Of a DNA stretch of 64,000 bases, positions 19,311 to 26,815 are shown piece after piece; the stretch's first letter is position 1, and every line of letters starts with the position of its first letter. The DNA is taken from NCBI RefSeq assembly GCF_030534335.1, contig NZ_CP130565.1, positions 3,679,501 through 3,743,500 on the forward strand, written 5' to 3'. This DNA comes from Marivirga harenae. Lineage in GTDB: Bacteria; Bacteroidota; Bacteroidia; Cytophagales; Cyclobacteriaceae. Made by a program: the position numbers and the translations under genes. Below the pieces are notes generated by a model. That model saw only the letters and a list, made by a program, of their open reading frames with translations. It did not search any database and was not told where the DNA came from.

Positions 19311-19895
19311 ATGACACTTCATTCTACAGCTTTAGCCCCCTTATTCAATAAAAAAGACATATTTGGTCGTCAGATTAATTTAGAGGATTATAAAGAAAAA
19401 AAGTTACTTATTGGATTTTTTAGACATGCCGGTTGTCCGTTTTGTAATTTAAGGGTTCATGCTTTAACTAAAGTACATGAAAAATTAAAAGCAAAAGGAC
19501 TAGAAATGATATTCTTTTTCGAATCCAAGGAAAGTGTATTATTGCGAAGCACTTTTCATAAAGAGGTCTCACCAATTCCGCTGATATCGGATCCCGATAA
19601 AGAAATCTATGCTAAATATGGTCTAGAGGAATCAAAAAAAATATCTAGAAATAGCCACATCACAAGCTTTATTCAAACCGCCATTAAGGCTAAGTTTACA
19701 GGTGTCCCTATGAATATGCCTGAAGAGCAGGAGTCTCTAAACACCATTCCTGCCGAATTCTTAGTGGATAAAGGATTGAGACTTAAAAAACTACATTATT
19801 CCAAGAGCCTTACTGATAGACTTGATTTAGATCTGATTGAGAAATTTGCTGATGACAGTAGCATTTTTGAAGAAGAATATAAAGCGGTCTCCTAA
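19311..19895 (+). CDS. peroxiredoxin-like (AhpC/TSA fold) protein
   Basis: This 194-residue thioredoxin-fold protein has an N-terminal segment naming a redoxin start (APLFNKKDIFGRQINL), the redox motif GCPFCNLRV with a CxxC pair near residues 40-43, and a later LISDPDKEIYAKYGLEES segment typical of peroxiredoxin-like proteins. It likely reduces peroxides or disulfides in the cytoplasm; no signal peptide is present. It stands 40 bases before the Nramp-pxpABC genes in the same direction, so it could be co-transcribed, although a functional link is not obvious. Confidence 0.82.
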   Translation: MTLHSTALAPLFNKKDIFGRQINLEDYKEKKLLIGFFRHAGCPFCNLRVHALTKVHEKLKAKGLEMIFFFESKESVLLRSTFHKEVSPIPLISDPDKEIYAKYGLEESKKISRNSHITSFIQTAIKAKFTGVPMNMPEEQESLNTIPAEFLVDKGLRLKKLHYSKSLTDRLDLDLIEKFADDSSIFEEEYKAVS

Positions 19896-19935: not shown

Positions 19936-21147
19936 ATGCTAAAAGATTTAAAGCAATTGGGACCAGGAATGATAGTGGCTGCCGCATTTATTGGGCCAGG
20001 TACTGTTACAACTGCTAGCATGGCTGGAGCGGGATATGGTTATACACTGCTATGGGCCATGCTTTTTTCTATCATTGCGACAATAATCCTCCAGGAAATG
20101 ACTTCAAGATTGGGGACGCAAGCAAAAATGGGGCTAGGTGAAGCCATTCGCAAAAAGTCCTCAAGTAGATTCCTAAAATATTTAAGTTATTTTCTGGTAA
20201 TCAGCGCCATTGTGATTGGAAATGCGGCATATGAATCAGGGAATTTGGCTGGCGCAGTCATGGGCTTTGAGAACTTTCCTCAAATTTTTGGAACCAATAT
20301 ATTGTTAATCTTGATTGGTCTTATCGCCTTTACACTATTATTTGTAGGCAAATACAAATATATTGAGCGATTTTTAGTTCTTTTAGTAAGTTTAATGGGA
20401 ATAGTTTTCATTCTTGCAGCTTTACTATTACAACCCTCTTTAATTGAAATCATGGAAGGCCTTTTTATCCCGGTAATTCCTGATAAAGCAGGATTGATGG
20501 TAGTGGGTTTGATTGGCACCACTGTGGTTCCCTACAATTTATTTCTGCATGCATCCGCTAGTAAAACAAAATGGAAAGATGGTGACTCGTTGAAATTATC
20601 AAGGTTTGACACTATCCTTTCCGTAAGTTTAGGCGGAATCATTACGATGGCTATAATGATATCAGCTGCCGTAGCATTTAAAGGAAGCCCTCAAGAAATT
20701 GATGGGATCAGTGCTCTGGGGCATCAACTCGATCCACTTTTAGGAAGTTGGTCATCTCATTTTATTGCTTTCGGATTTTTAGCCGCTGGATTTTCTTCAA
20801 GTATAACAGCACCATTAGCGGCAGCATATGCCACATCAGAGATATTGGATTGGAAACATGGATTAAAAAACAAAAAATTTAAAATGGTGTGGGCTTTTGT
20901 ACTTTTTACAGGTATCATAATTGCTTCACTAGGTTTCCGTCCAACTGCCTTAATTTTATTTGCACAAGTAGCCAATGGATTACTTCTCCCAATTCTGGCC
21001 ATCTATCTTTTATGGATTGTCAATGACAAGGCGCTCATGGGAAAACATGTGAATTCAAAACTCATAAATGTTACTGGCGTTGTGGTTATTATTGTGACTT
21101 TAATTTTGGGAATAAAAAGTATAATTGGTGCATTGGGATTTATATAA
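19936..21147 (+). CDS. Nramp-fold transporter lacking the canonical metal-site motifs
   Basis: This 403-residue membrane protein has about eleven spans and clear Nramp-family sequence, for example IGPGTVTTASMAGAGYGYTLLW in TM1 and GTTVVPYNLFLHAS in TM6. In metal-transporting Nramps TM1 carries DPGN and TM6 carries MPH. Here these are GPGT (Gly20, Thr23) and VPY (Val198, Tyr200), so the acidic, amide and thioether metal ligands are absent. It overlaps pxpA by one base (TAATG), and pxpB and pxpC follow. It therefore more likely carries 5-oxoproline or another organic acid than Mn or Fe. That substrate is inference; the fold assignment is firm. Confidence 0.9.
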   Translation: MLKDLKQLGPGMIVAAAFIGPGTVTTASMAGAGYGYTLLWAMLFSIIATIILQEMTSRLGTQAKMGLGEAIRKKSSSRFLKYLSYFLVISAIVIGNAAYESGNLAGAVMGFENFPQIFGTNILLILIGLIAFTLLFVGKYKYIERFLVLLVSLMGIVFILAALLLQPSLIEIMEGLFIPVIPDKAGLMVVGLIGTTVVPYNLFLHASASKTKWKDGDSLKLSRFDTILSVSLGGIITMAIMISAAVAFKGSPQEIDGISALGHQLDPLLGSWSSHFIAFGFLAAGFSSSITAPLAAAYATSEILDWKHGLKNKKFKMVWAFVLFTGIIIASLGFRPTALILFAQVANGLLLPILAIYLLWIVNDKALMGKHVNSKLINVTGVVVIIVTLILGIKSIIGALGFI

Positions 21148-21911
21148 TGAAGAATATGGCTTCAATAGATATTAATTGTGATTTAGGTGAAAGTTTTGGT
21201 CAGTTTTCAATGGGAAATGACGATGCAATTTTCCCTTATATCAGCTCCTGCAATATTGCTTGTGGATTTCATGGTGGTGATCCTTTACACATAGAAAATA
21301 CTATCAAGAAGGCAATATATTATGACGTGCAAATTGGTGCACATCCCTCCTATCCGGACTTAGCTGGATTTGGAAGGCGTAAAATAAGGCTTTCAAGTGA
21401 TGAATTAAAAGCAACTATTAAGTACCAAATTGCAGCATTGCAAGGCATGGTTAAAAGTTTGGGAGGAGAATTGAAGTATGTAAAAGCCCATGGTGCATTG
21501 TACAATACAATTGCCCATGATAAAAAGGAGGCAGAAGTTTTTCTTAAAGCAGTTAATGAAATCAATCCTAGCCTGGCCATTTTGGGACTTGCTGGAAGTC
21601 CTTTTCAAGAATTCACTCGGAAATTTGGATTCAAGTTTATCAGAGAAGGTTTTTTGGACAGGAAATACCAAGAAGATGGCCAATTGATGTCCAGAAAAGA
21701 AGAGGGATCTGTTTTGCAAAGTGTTGAAGAAAGCATTGAACAATTCCAATCAATAGTCAAAAATGGTGAAGCCAAAACGGCAAGCGGAAGGAAAATCAAC
21801 TTGGAAGTAGATAGTTTATGTATTCATGGAGATAACCCGTTAGCAGAGGATATATTGAAAGCCATACATCAAATAGAAAATAAAATCAGCATAAAAAAAT
21901 TAATACTGTGA
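21147..21911 (+). CDS. pxpA: 5-oxoprolinase subunit A (LamB/YcsF family)
   Basis: This 254-residue protein has the family opening IDINCDLGESFG, then MGNDDAIFPYISSCNIACGFHGGDP and IGAHPSYPDLAGFGRR, followed by KAHGALYN. With PxpB and PxpC it forms the ATP-dependent 5-oxoprolinase that opens 5-oxoproline (pyroglutamate) to glutamate in the cytoplasm. It starts on the last base of the transporter stop codon. A second ATG three codons in, at 21156, is also possible. All three subunits are complete and adjacent. Confidence 0.94.
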   Translation: MKNMASIDINCDLGESFGQFSMGNDDAIFPYISSCNIACGFHGGDPLHIENTIKKAIYYDVQIGAHPSYPDLAGFGRRKIRLSSDELKATIKYQIAALQGMVKSLGGELKYVKAHGALYNTIAHDKKEAEVFLKAVNEINPSLAILGLAGSPFQEFTRKFGFKFIREGFLDRKYQEDGQLMSRKEEGSVLQSVEESIEQFQSIVKNGEAKTASGRKINLEVDSLCIHGDNPLAEDILKAIHQIENKISIKKLIL

Positions 21912-22582
21912 TGGAAATTATTGCTTATGGAGATAATGCTTTGCTCATTAATTTTGAACAAAAGATTGACTCTGAAACTCATCAATTAGTCAAATCTTAT
22001 CATAATGCCATTATTAATATTGAAGAAGTTGTTTATCAAATTCCTGCTTACTGCTCCATTACGGTAGTTTTTGATAATGAATCTATCAATTTTGAAATAT
22101 TAAAAGATAAGATCAAAGAATTAGGCATAAAGCCAGAACAAACTCAATCAAAATCAAAAATCATTGAAATCCCAGTTTGCTATGAAACAGATTATGCCCC
22201 TGACATCGAATCTCTTGCTCAAGATTTAAAATTAAGTCAAGAAGATATCATTTCTTTACATACTAGTCAGACTTATGATGTTTATATGATGGGCTTTTTG
22301 CCTGGATTTCCTTATTTGGGTAAATTACCAAAAGAATTAGAATGTAAACGAAAATCAACTCCACGAAAGTTCGTAAAATCTGGAAGTGTGGGATTAGCAG
22401 GTATTCAAACTGGAATTTACCCTAGCGAGGCACCGGGTGGTTGGCAATTGATTGGTCAAACACCTTTAAAAATATTTAACTCAAGAAAAGAAGAGCCTTT
22501 TTTATTAAAAATGGGTGATCTGGTTAAGTTTTATACTATTTCTGCCACAGAATTTAAAAAGATTCAAGATGAAGCAAAGTGA
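21911..22582 (+). CDS. pxpB: 5-oxoprolinase subunit B (KipI family)
   Basis: This 223-residue protein matches the KipI/PxpB family, with GFLPGFPYLGKLP, the TPRKFVKSGSVGLAG segment and APGGWQLIGQTP. It forms the biotin-independent 5-oxoprolinase with PxpA and PxpC. I place the start at the ATG of 21911, which overlaps the pxpA TGA by one base; a GTG at 21908 is an alternative. Its 3' end overlaps pxpC by 14 bases. Translation of the whole set is probably coupled. Confidence 0.94.
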   Translation: MEIIAYGDNALLINFEQKIDSETHQLVKSYHNAIINIEEVVYQIPAYCSITVVFDNESINFEILKDKIKELGIKPEQTQSKSKIIEIPVCYETDYAPDIESLAQDLKLSQEDIISLHTSQTYDVYMMGFLPGFPYLGKLPKELECKRKSTPRKFVKSGSVGLAGIQTGIYPSEAPGGWQLIGQTPLKIFNSRKEEPFLLKMGDLVKFYTISATEFKKIQDEAK

Positions 22583-23447
22583 ACTGACCTTAATATTTTT
22601 GAAAGCAGGAATGCAAACAACCGTTCAAGATCAAGGAAGAGCAGGTCTGCAACATTTGGGAGTTCCAATTGGAGGAGCGTTAGATAAACGTTCTGCCGAA
22701 TTGGCTAATTATTTGGTTGGTAACAATCAACAAACCCCCGTGCTAGAAATAACCATGATGGGGCCTGAAATTCTATTTGATACAGATGCTTTAGTGGCTG
22801 TAACGGGAGCACAGTTTGATATTTACATTGATAATAGAATTGTAAAAAATGAAGAAGCCTTTCATGTGAAAAGTGGTACGATTGTTAGGTTCGGACAGTT
22901 AAATTATGGATGCAGGGCTTATATGGCCGTTGCAGGTAAATGGAACGCCAAGAAATGGAAAGGAAGTGCTAGCCCTATTTTGCAAGCAGCTGAAGCAACA
23001 CCCGATAGTATAATAAAAAAAGGCTCTAAATTGAAAATTGAATCAGCACATTTGAACAAAAACGGAACTTTAGACAAAAATACTTCAACTCCCCCTTTAG
23101 CCAATAAAATAAGATTAAAAGTAAAAGCTGGACCTGAATTTGAAAACATTTCAAGGACTGCGATCGCAAAGTTCTTTGGCCAAGGTCACCTGATCACTCA
23201 AGATGCCAACAGAATGGGCTATAGATTAAAAACAGAACTAACCGCATTAGAAGAAAAGAAAGAAATGATTTCCTCGGGTATTATTCCGGGAACTGTCCAG
23301 CTTACAAGTAGTGGTCAGCCCATCATACTACTAAATGATGCGCAAACGACAGGTGGATATCCTAGAATTGTGAATATAATTGCTAAGGACTTAGATCAAA
23401 TAGCGCAATTAAAACCTGGTGATGAAATCTGGTTTAGTCTTGAATGA
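22569..23447 (+). CDS. pxpC: 5-oxoprolinase subunit C (KipA family)
   Basis: From the ATG at 22569 this is a 292-residue KipA/PxpC protein with TTVQDQGRAGLQHLGVPIGGALDK at the start and GIIPGTVQLTSSGQPIILLNDAQTTGGYPRI near the end, split across the usual cyclophilin-like fold. It is the third 5-oxoprolinase subunit. The longer frame from 22515 lies inside pxpB and adds a non-family leader, so I reject it. It ends 24 bases before the stop of the convergent PBP gene, and no clear terminator lies between them. Confidence 0.94.
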   Translation: MKQSELTLIFLKAGMQTTVQDQGRAGLQHLGVPIGGALDKRSAELANYLVGNNQQTPVLEITMMGPEILFDTDALVAVTGAQFDIYIDNRIVKNEEAFHVKSGTIVRFGQLNYGCRAYMAVAGKWNAKKWKGSASPILQAAEATPDSIIKKGSKLKIESAHLNKNGTLDKNTSTPPLANKIRLKVKAGPEFENISRTAIAKFFGQGHLITQDANRMGYRLKTELTALEEKKEMISSGIIPGTVQLTSSGQPIILLNDAQTTGGYPRIVNIIAKDLDQIAQLKPGDEIWFSLE

Positions 23448-25916: not shown

Positions 25917-25924
25917 TATGTTTG
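25917..25924 (+). promoter_or_regulatory. Bacteroidota-type -7 box (TATGTTTG)
   Basis: TATGTTTG matches TAnnTTTG exactly and lies 24 bases before the GTG at 25949. A clear TTTG at the -33 position is not seen. The box includes the TTG at 25922, which argues against that codon as the translation start. Confidence 0.5.
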
Positions 25925-25948
25925 TACACTCAAAAAAGGAAGAATACT

Positions 25949-26815
25949 GTGAGTAAAACCATAAGAATAGGCGGAGTACCAGAACATTACAATACACCAA
26001 TCCACCTAGCAATAGAATCCGGAGCCATTAAGAATGAAGGCTTACAAATTGAATGGATAACATTTGAAGGAGGCACAGGCGAAATGAGAGAAGCACTCAT
26101 CAATAATGAAGTTGATATTTGTGCTATTTTAACAGAAGGTATAGTGAGTGGGATTTTACAAGGTGTGCCTGCCAAAATCATCAGCGGTTATGTAAAAAGC
26201 CCACTAATTTGGGGCATACATAGCGGAACAGAAAATCCGATAAGAGACCATAAAGAGATTTACGATAAGCAGTTTGCCATTAGTAGAATTGGATCCGGTT
26301 CACACTTAATGCCAATAGTAGATGCTTTAAATAATGATAAAAAATTAGAGGAATCGCAGTTCAAAATTATCCAAAACCTAAAAGGCGCATTAGCATCACT
26401 TCAAAAGCAGGAAACAGATGTTTTTTATTGGGAAAAGTACACCACCAAGCCTTATGTTGAAAGAGGAGAATTGAAACGTATCGGTGAATATGTAACGCCT
26501 TGGCCCTGCTTCGTATTAGCAGCACATACTGAAATCATTAATGAAAGGCCCAAGGATATATCAAGAGTACTACGGCAAATACAACGTACTTCTGCCATGT
26601 TTATGGAAAATGAAGACGCAGTAAACATGGTTAGTGAACGATTCAAAATTAAAAAAGAAGACGCTGCCAAATGGTATCATGCTACTGAATGGGCTACGGA
26701 CGGCTGGGTTAGTAATAAGATGCTAAAAAATGTAGTATACACCTTAAAAGAAGCTAATATAATTGATGAAATGGCGGATACTGAACAACTCGTTTGGCAA
26801 CGGAATAGTATTTAA
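25949..26815 (+). CDS. Ca3427-like orphan type 2 binding protein
   Basis: This protein has the fold of ABC substrate-binding proteins of the NMT1/nitrate type (VPEHYNTPIHLAIESG, FEGGTGEMREALINNEVDICAILTEG) but no signal peptide and no permease or ATPase neighbours. It resembles the group named after Candida Ca3427, which are cytoplasmic and of unknown ligand. I take the GTG at 25949 (288 residues) rather than the TTG at 25922, because a -7 box covers that TTG and the family sequence starts right after the GTG. The cyclophilin gene follows after 69 bases. Confidence 0.75.
   Translation: MSKTIRIGGVPEHYNTPIHLAIESGAIKNEGLQIEWITFEGGTGEMREALINNEVDICAILTEGIVSGILQGVPAKIISGYVKSPLIWGIHSGTENPIRDHKEIYDKQFAISRIGSGSHLMPIVDALNNDKKLEESQFKIIQNLKGALASLQKQETDVFYWEKYTTKPYVERGELKRIGEYVTPWPCFVLAAHTEIINERPKDISRVLRQIQRTSAMFMENEDAVNMVSERFKIKKEDAAKWYHATEWATDGWVSNKMLKNVVYTLKEANIIDEMADTEQLVWQRNSI

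Follow-up and report, generated by a model that had tools for sequence, protein, structure and literature searches.

What does an Nramp-family protein carry when it is encoded in one run with a complete 5-oxoprolinase and has other residues at the positions that bind metal in canonical Nramps? This question is raised by a 64,000-nucleotide stretch of the Marivirga harenae genome (contig NZ_CP130565.1, positions 3,679,501 to 3,743,500; hereafter the window), in which a transporter gene with the motif GPGT directly precedes pxpA, pxpB and pxpC. The original prediction for this locus, made from the letters of the DNA, proposed that the transporter imports 5-oxoproline or another small organic acid. 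Import of 5-oxoproline was found to be well supported by indirect evidence, and we give it a probability of roughly 0.8, because the metal ligands are lost throughout the clade to which the protein belongs and because this clade is associated almost exclusively with oxoprolinases.

Residues and predicted structure of the transporter

The transporter gene lies at positions 19936..21147 of the forward strand and encodes 403 amino acids, as judged from its open reading frame, its Pfam match and an AlphaFold model. The product matched the Pfam Nramp family (PF01566) with 290 bits against a gathering score of 29.8 and is encoded by the sole PF01566 gene of the 4.37-Mb Marivirga genome. The models for canonical Nramps missed their cut-offs (NF001923, 179 of 430 bits; TIGR01197, 98.7 of 272.5 bits). 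When the protein was aligned with DraNramp, the sequence G20-P-G-T23 of transmembrane helix (TM) 1 (residues 20-23, codons at 19993..20004, + strand) fell at the canonical DPGN site, and V198-P-Y200 of TM6 (residues 198-200, 20527..20535, + strand) at the canonical MPH site; both sets of residue numbers had been given correctly in the original prediction. In TM3, the stretch NAAYESGN (residues 96-103, 20221..20244, + strand) placed E100 at Dra D131 and N103 at Dra E134.

Conservation of these positions was then determined in 166 unique members of the clade. G20, T23, V198 and Y200 were fixed in 100% of the members and N103 was present in 165 of 166, at the DraNramp columns D56, N59, M230, H232 and E134, where canonical Nramps carry D, N, M, H and E. 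Q344 (Dra Q378) was retained. The E100 column held Glu in 146 members and Gln in 19, and E100 is the sole acidic residue left among the compared positions. The proton-pathway residues of TM3 (Dra E124, D131 and E134) are replaced by V93, E100 and N103, a set different from that of a canonical Nramp. That the altered site is fixed across the clade suggests another substrate and not decay, and the missing acidic and thioether ligands would rule out a canonical divalent-metal site.

The AlphaFold model, built from 43 sequences with a mean predicted local distance difference test score of 88.6, has helix breaks at GPGT in TM1 and at V198 in TM6. It superposed on DraNramp with a Z score of 46 and on EleNRMT with 45, and on the amino-acid carriers AdiC and ApcT with 26-27. 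In such carriers of the amino acid-polyamine-organocation (APC) superfamily (AdiC, ApcT and LAT1), G-x-G loops bind the carboxylate of the substrate by backbone amides. By analogy, the Gly-Pro-Gly break in TM1 would hold the carboxylate of the substrate with its backbone amides, and Y200, N103, E100 and Q344 probably line the site. We propose that the protein is a secondary importer of the Nramp/LeuT fold for 5-oxo-L-proline or for a small cyclic-amide acid much like it.

Transport would be directed inward. An exchanger or exporter, moving for example glutamate or 5-oxoproline out, is very unlikely: the sequence itself does not set the direction, and exchangers are common in the APC superfamily (one of them is AdiC, which the model resembles in structure), but pxpT, ycsG and cj0552-4, albeit of other lineages, are needed for the use of external 5-oxoproline.

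Organization of the operon

PxpABC is an ATP-dependent enzyme that opens the ring of 5-oxoproline to give glutamate, and all three of its subunits are encoded, intact, beside the transporter on the forward strand. The stop codon TAA of the transporter (21145-21147) shares one base with the ATG of pxpA at 21147. The gene for subunit A (LamB/YcsF, 21147..21911; PF03746) scored 306 bits with NF003814, above the cut-off, and its TGA (21909-21911) again shares one base with the ATG of pxpB at 21911. The latter gene, for subunit B (21911..22582, with GTG 21908 as an alternative start; PF02682), passed the cut-off of TIGR00370. For subunit C (pxpC, 22569..23447; PF02626), the start is most plausibly ATG 22569, which overlaps pxpB by 14 bases, the mechanically assigned GTG 22515 being less likely. 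Thus PxpA and PxpB passed the NCBIfam cut-offs, and PxpC passed that of TIGR00724 but reached only 222 of the 500 bits that a stricter model for PxpC demands. The chain of overlaps described in the original prediction is borne out by these coordinates; the transporter would accordingly be co-translated with the enzyme that turns the imported 5-oxoproline into glutamate.

The same pairing was observed in the genus, where pxpA directly follows the transporter gene in eight of nine other genomes and the ninth is cut by a contig end; it is not due to chance. The closest named relative of the transporter is that of Marivirga sericea (82%).

The GPGT clade

In trees of 89 and 41 rows, the GPGT sequences formed one side of a branch with supports of 88/95 and 97/96, respectively, separate from canonical Nramps, from NRMT and from groups with the TM1 motifs GPGS and GTGS. 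The scores of the search in 148 Bacteroidota genomes were likewise bimodal, with GPGT genes at >=196 bits and all others at <=139. The window protein is a member of a distinct and well-supported clade, and the alignment and tree that the original prediction had proposed as a check placed it outside the canonical Mn/Fe clade. The GPGS and GTGS groups of Nramp-related proteins also occur in Bacteroidota (our loci L023, L024, L025, L031, L028, L029 and L227-L230). Literature searches, which covered an open-access library, returned neither functional data on the GPGT lineage nor a paper tying it to OPLAH or to DUF2891.

Association with 5-oxoprolinases across genomes

Two sets of loci were compiled. 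Scanning the genomes of 84,980 species gave 80 loci, a set that favours close relatives; 74 of these loci were pxp-linked, two were linked to a fused OPLAH-type enzyme, three were unlinked and one was cut by a contig end. The second set comprised 148 evenly drawn Bacteroidota genomes, and the 35 among them with a GPGT gene covered seven families by group codes. The gene stood beside pxpA in 21 of these genomes and beside OPLAH/HyuAB in eight, and in the remaining six an oxoprolinase was encoded elsewhere. A 5-oxoprolinase was encoded in all 35 genomes with a GPGT gene versus 21 of 113 without (Fisher 1e-19, a value that ignores shared ancestry). Adjacency to an oxoprolinase was found for 29 of 35 GPGT genes versus 0 of 89 other Nramp homologues, a count limited to matches at E<=1e-15, since the more distant GPGF group does adjoin pxp genes.

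Among the 166 unique members, 124 were pxp-linked, 17 were linked to HyuAB/OPLAH and 25 were unlinked, so the expectation that the clade always travels with pxpABC did not hold. For 23 of the 25 unlinked members, an oxoprolinase was present elsewhere in the genome or record, and the other two lie on plasmid records whose chromosomes were outside the search. GPGT genes lacking a pxp neighbour had been considered as counter-evidence, which was dropped when wider loci revealed OPLAH/HyuAB beside many of them. The GPGT transporter beside pxpABC at one locus (L264, G176:C3) seems broken; in this draft genome it is a fragment that contains an in-frame TAG and lies where a contig ends.

Two unrelated partner enzymes

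PxpABC and OPLAH/HyuAB are non-homologous ATP-dependent lactam hydrolases. In Haloferax mediterranei and other haloarchaea, no gap separates the GPGT gene from HyuAB, and a fused or split OPLAH is found beside it in several Bacteroidota. At least three changes of partner between PxpABC and OPLAH/HyuAB were needed on the tree. Genomes with pxpA (34) and with HyuB (22) never overlapped in the sample of 148, where five were expected to carry both (p=0.002); an absence of co-occurrence is what would be expected of interchangeable enzymes.

To our knowledge, the sole established activity of PxpABC is that on 5-oxoproline, and most members of the clade pair with this enzyme. This bears on another reading, in which the transporter carries some other small cyclic amide or related solute (a hydantoin, D-5-oxoproline or a lactam) and 5-oxoproline is only one substrate. 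Such a reading draws on the hydantoinases and caprolactamase of the HyuAB family, in which the best NCBIfam match was CapA, and on the gene of the Asp/Glu-racemase family that ends two of the four HyuAB-linked loci inspected in haloarchaea. A single substrate, 5-oxoproline, nevertheless accounts for both enzyme types and for the link to DUF2891 described below, and we regard the broader cyclic-amide specificity as quite unlikely.

DUF2891 and other neighbours

The commonest other neighbour of GPGT genes was DUF2891 (PF11199), a putative lipoprotein (for example L095:5784-6989, and 51 other loci) for which a structure exists (8ieu). In 52 of 163 loci it immediately preceded the transporter gene on the same strand, and four of these 52 have no oxoprolinase link; no DUF2891 gene was found within the 64-kb window. 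In Campylobacter jejuni, cj0552-4 encode DUF969, DUF979 and DUF2891, and the mutant loses the use of 5-oxoproline (PMC12795558). DUF2891, being common to the GPGT loci and to cj0552-4, thus connects GPGT transporters with another carrier, DUF969/DUF979, for which the same substrate is supported genetically, and is a candidate partner in 5-oxoproline acquisition. At one locus, a gene for gamma-glutamyltranspeptidase (L198:10895-12625) lies directly 3' of an unlinked GPGT transporter that has DUF2891 upstream, an arrangement that fits breakdown of glutathione or gamma-glutamyl compounds feeding 5-oxoproline.

Within the window, 40 bases separate the end of a gene for a SelL-related redoxin (19311-19895, + strand) from the transporter gene downstream of it. 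Most genomes of the genus keep the redoxin gene near the transporter, though the distance varies, and it is probably unrelated. Further downstream, a gene at 25922-26815 (+ strand, TTG start) encodes a periplasmic-binding-protein-like product in which a signal peptide is not obvious; the stretch listed showed no adjoining genes for a transporter.

The GPGF lineage and the manganese dispute

The idea that an Nramp-related protein imports 5-oxoproline is already published for a different lineage: YcsG of Bacillus subtilis and PxpT (cg1142) of Corynebacterium glutamicum were reported to be necessary for 5-oxoproline use, PxpT being required for growth on it (PMC13274462). It is disputed by the renaming of YcsG as MntG, a Mn importer (PMC10448178). 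To place these proteins relative to the window protein, we turned to the Bacteroidota genomes that have pxp genes without a GPGT gene. In five of them an Nramp-related protein with IGPGF in TM1 adjoins pxpA, and in one a carrier of the major facilitator superfamily does so. A GPGF gene also adjoins the genes for PxpA and a hydro-lyase in Bacillus badius and accompanies accBC-pxpBCA in Moraxella; the ycs/kip operon and, as it seems, the mum operon are arranged in these ways. Because the gene neighbourhoods match in this way, we infer that the GPGF type includes YcsG, PxpT and MumT, and for YcsG the synteny in B. badius is joined by an identity of only 18% to the window protein (model 9a52_A, over 383 residues).

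The GPGF proteins formed a separate clade on a long branch (100/100 in the 41-row tree) and were 25-29% identical to the window protein, which, having GPGT and not IGPGF in TM1, lies outside this lineage. The possibility that the window protein is a plain YcsG/PxpT ortholog was rejected on the 18% identity and on the GPGF protein of the B. badius locus, whose gene set is like that of B. subtilis. A PDB sequence search with the window protein did not return YcsG, and one with a GPGF protein returned no relative. The GPGF group, with the motifs IGPGF and GGTVGGY (L257-L261 and L271-L274), was also found on plasmids of Deinococcus, Bacillus, Moraxella and Lactiplantibacillus as well as, by count only, of Klebsiella.

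Points against 5-oxoproline import

Several observations weigh against the proposed substrate. EleNRMT, which has no full DPGN/MPH motif, moves Mg2+ and Mn2+; since it also departs from the motif, loss of the motif is by itself compatible with metal transport, and the sequence alone does not exclude it. Canonical Nramps were present in only two of the 35 genomes with a GPGT gene versus 44 of the 113 others, which could point to functional replacement, although the distribution of either gene also tracks lineage. In three Pseudomonadales genomes (L192, L193 and L196), the GPGT gene lies three bases behind mgtE, the gene of a Mg transporter, and pxpA is elsewhere. One draft genome (G042) has a GPGT gene, and neither type of oxoprolinase was found in it. 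The substrate of HyuAB is 5-oxoproline by parsimony and not by proof, because HyuAB proteins also include hydantoinases and caprolactamases (PMC8453981). Finally, YcsG (PMC10448178) and MumT of Acinetobacter baumannii (PMC5050338), though apparently of the GPGF lineage, were reported to be Mn importers: Mn accumulates on overexpression of ycsG, and the mumT mutant, whose operon is like pxp operons, has Mn defects.

A rival reading, in favour of which these reports speak, is a divalent-metal importer (Mn2+ or Mg2+), which would supply a cofactor to the oxoprolinase or link nitrogen metabolism to Mn as proposed for MntG/YcsG and MumT. The scarcity of canonical Nramps, the mgtE neighbour and the conserved metal site of HyuB-type enzymes (PMC8453981) would agree with such a role. 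Yet the canonical ligand columns hold no acidic or sulphur side chain and their replacements are invariant, and the D56A variant of DraNramp moves neither Mn nor Cd (PMC10185341). One dedicated metal importer for two unrelated enzymes is also less economical than a common substrate, and YcsG is only 18% identical to the window protein. A metal role for the GPGT transporter is therefore disfavoured and appears unlikely.

Implications and comparison with known systems

What is new here is that a role already proposed for one Nramp-related lineage extends to a second one, separate from it. Through two non-homologous enzymes, and through DUF2891 as a shared partner, the GPGT clade is linked to a defined metabolite, and DUF2891 gains a pathway. 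This bears on the dispute between 5-oxoproline and Mn, as databases label such proteins 'divalent metal transporter', and on the question of whether the ancestral Nramps carried metal. The original prediction held that the Nramp fold was re-used for an organic solute. An organic solute is indeed favoured, but the metal-first order was assumed and may be the reverse, because a rooted phylogeny puts Nramp-related groups at the base (PMC12873925). If the GPGT and GPGF lineages both import 5-oxoproline, their position outside the metal clades would suggest that the family began as amino-acid-like carriers with a G-x-G loop and acquired the DPGN/MPH metal site later; we offer these two propositions together tentatively and consider them rather doubtful.

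The window protein resembles PxpT, YcsG (MntG) and PxpG of Clostridioides difficile in being an Nramp-family protein encoded with pxpABC; YcsG differs in its low identity, in its GPGF lineage as judged by synteny and in its disputed Mn role. With canonical Nramp/MntH proteins (DraNramp and BfraNramp), it shares the fold (Z 43-46, 24-26% identity) and the helix breaks in TM1 and TM6, whereas the five ligand and proton-pathway residues D, N, M, H and E are G, T, V, Y and N throughout the GPGT clade. EleNRMT and the NRMT-like Mg2+ transporters are likewise Nramp-related and without DPGN/MPH, but they keep the TM1 Asp and the TM3 Glu, carry DAGG/APW motifs and belong to another clade. A 2026 structural study calls the Nramp-related groups uncharacterised except for EleNRMT (NRMT-like) and the disputed MntG, which it places in 'G-motif 3' (PMC12873925). 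The h3 Y/N, h6 V/Y and invariant glycines of the GPGT clade match the 'orphan' outgroup of Slc11 described by Cellier (PMC10606218) and the 'G-motif' groups (PMC12873925), to which no substrate was assigned in those papers except for MntG, the hypothesised Mn importer. The DUF969/DUF979 transporter of C. jejuni (cj0552-3), which is assigned to other protein families, shares with the GPGT transporters the proposed substrate and the DUF2891 neighbour.

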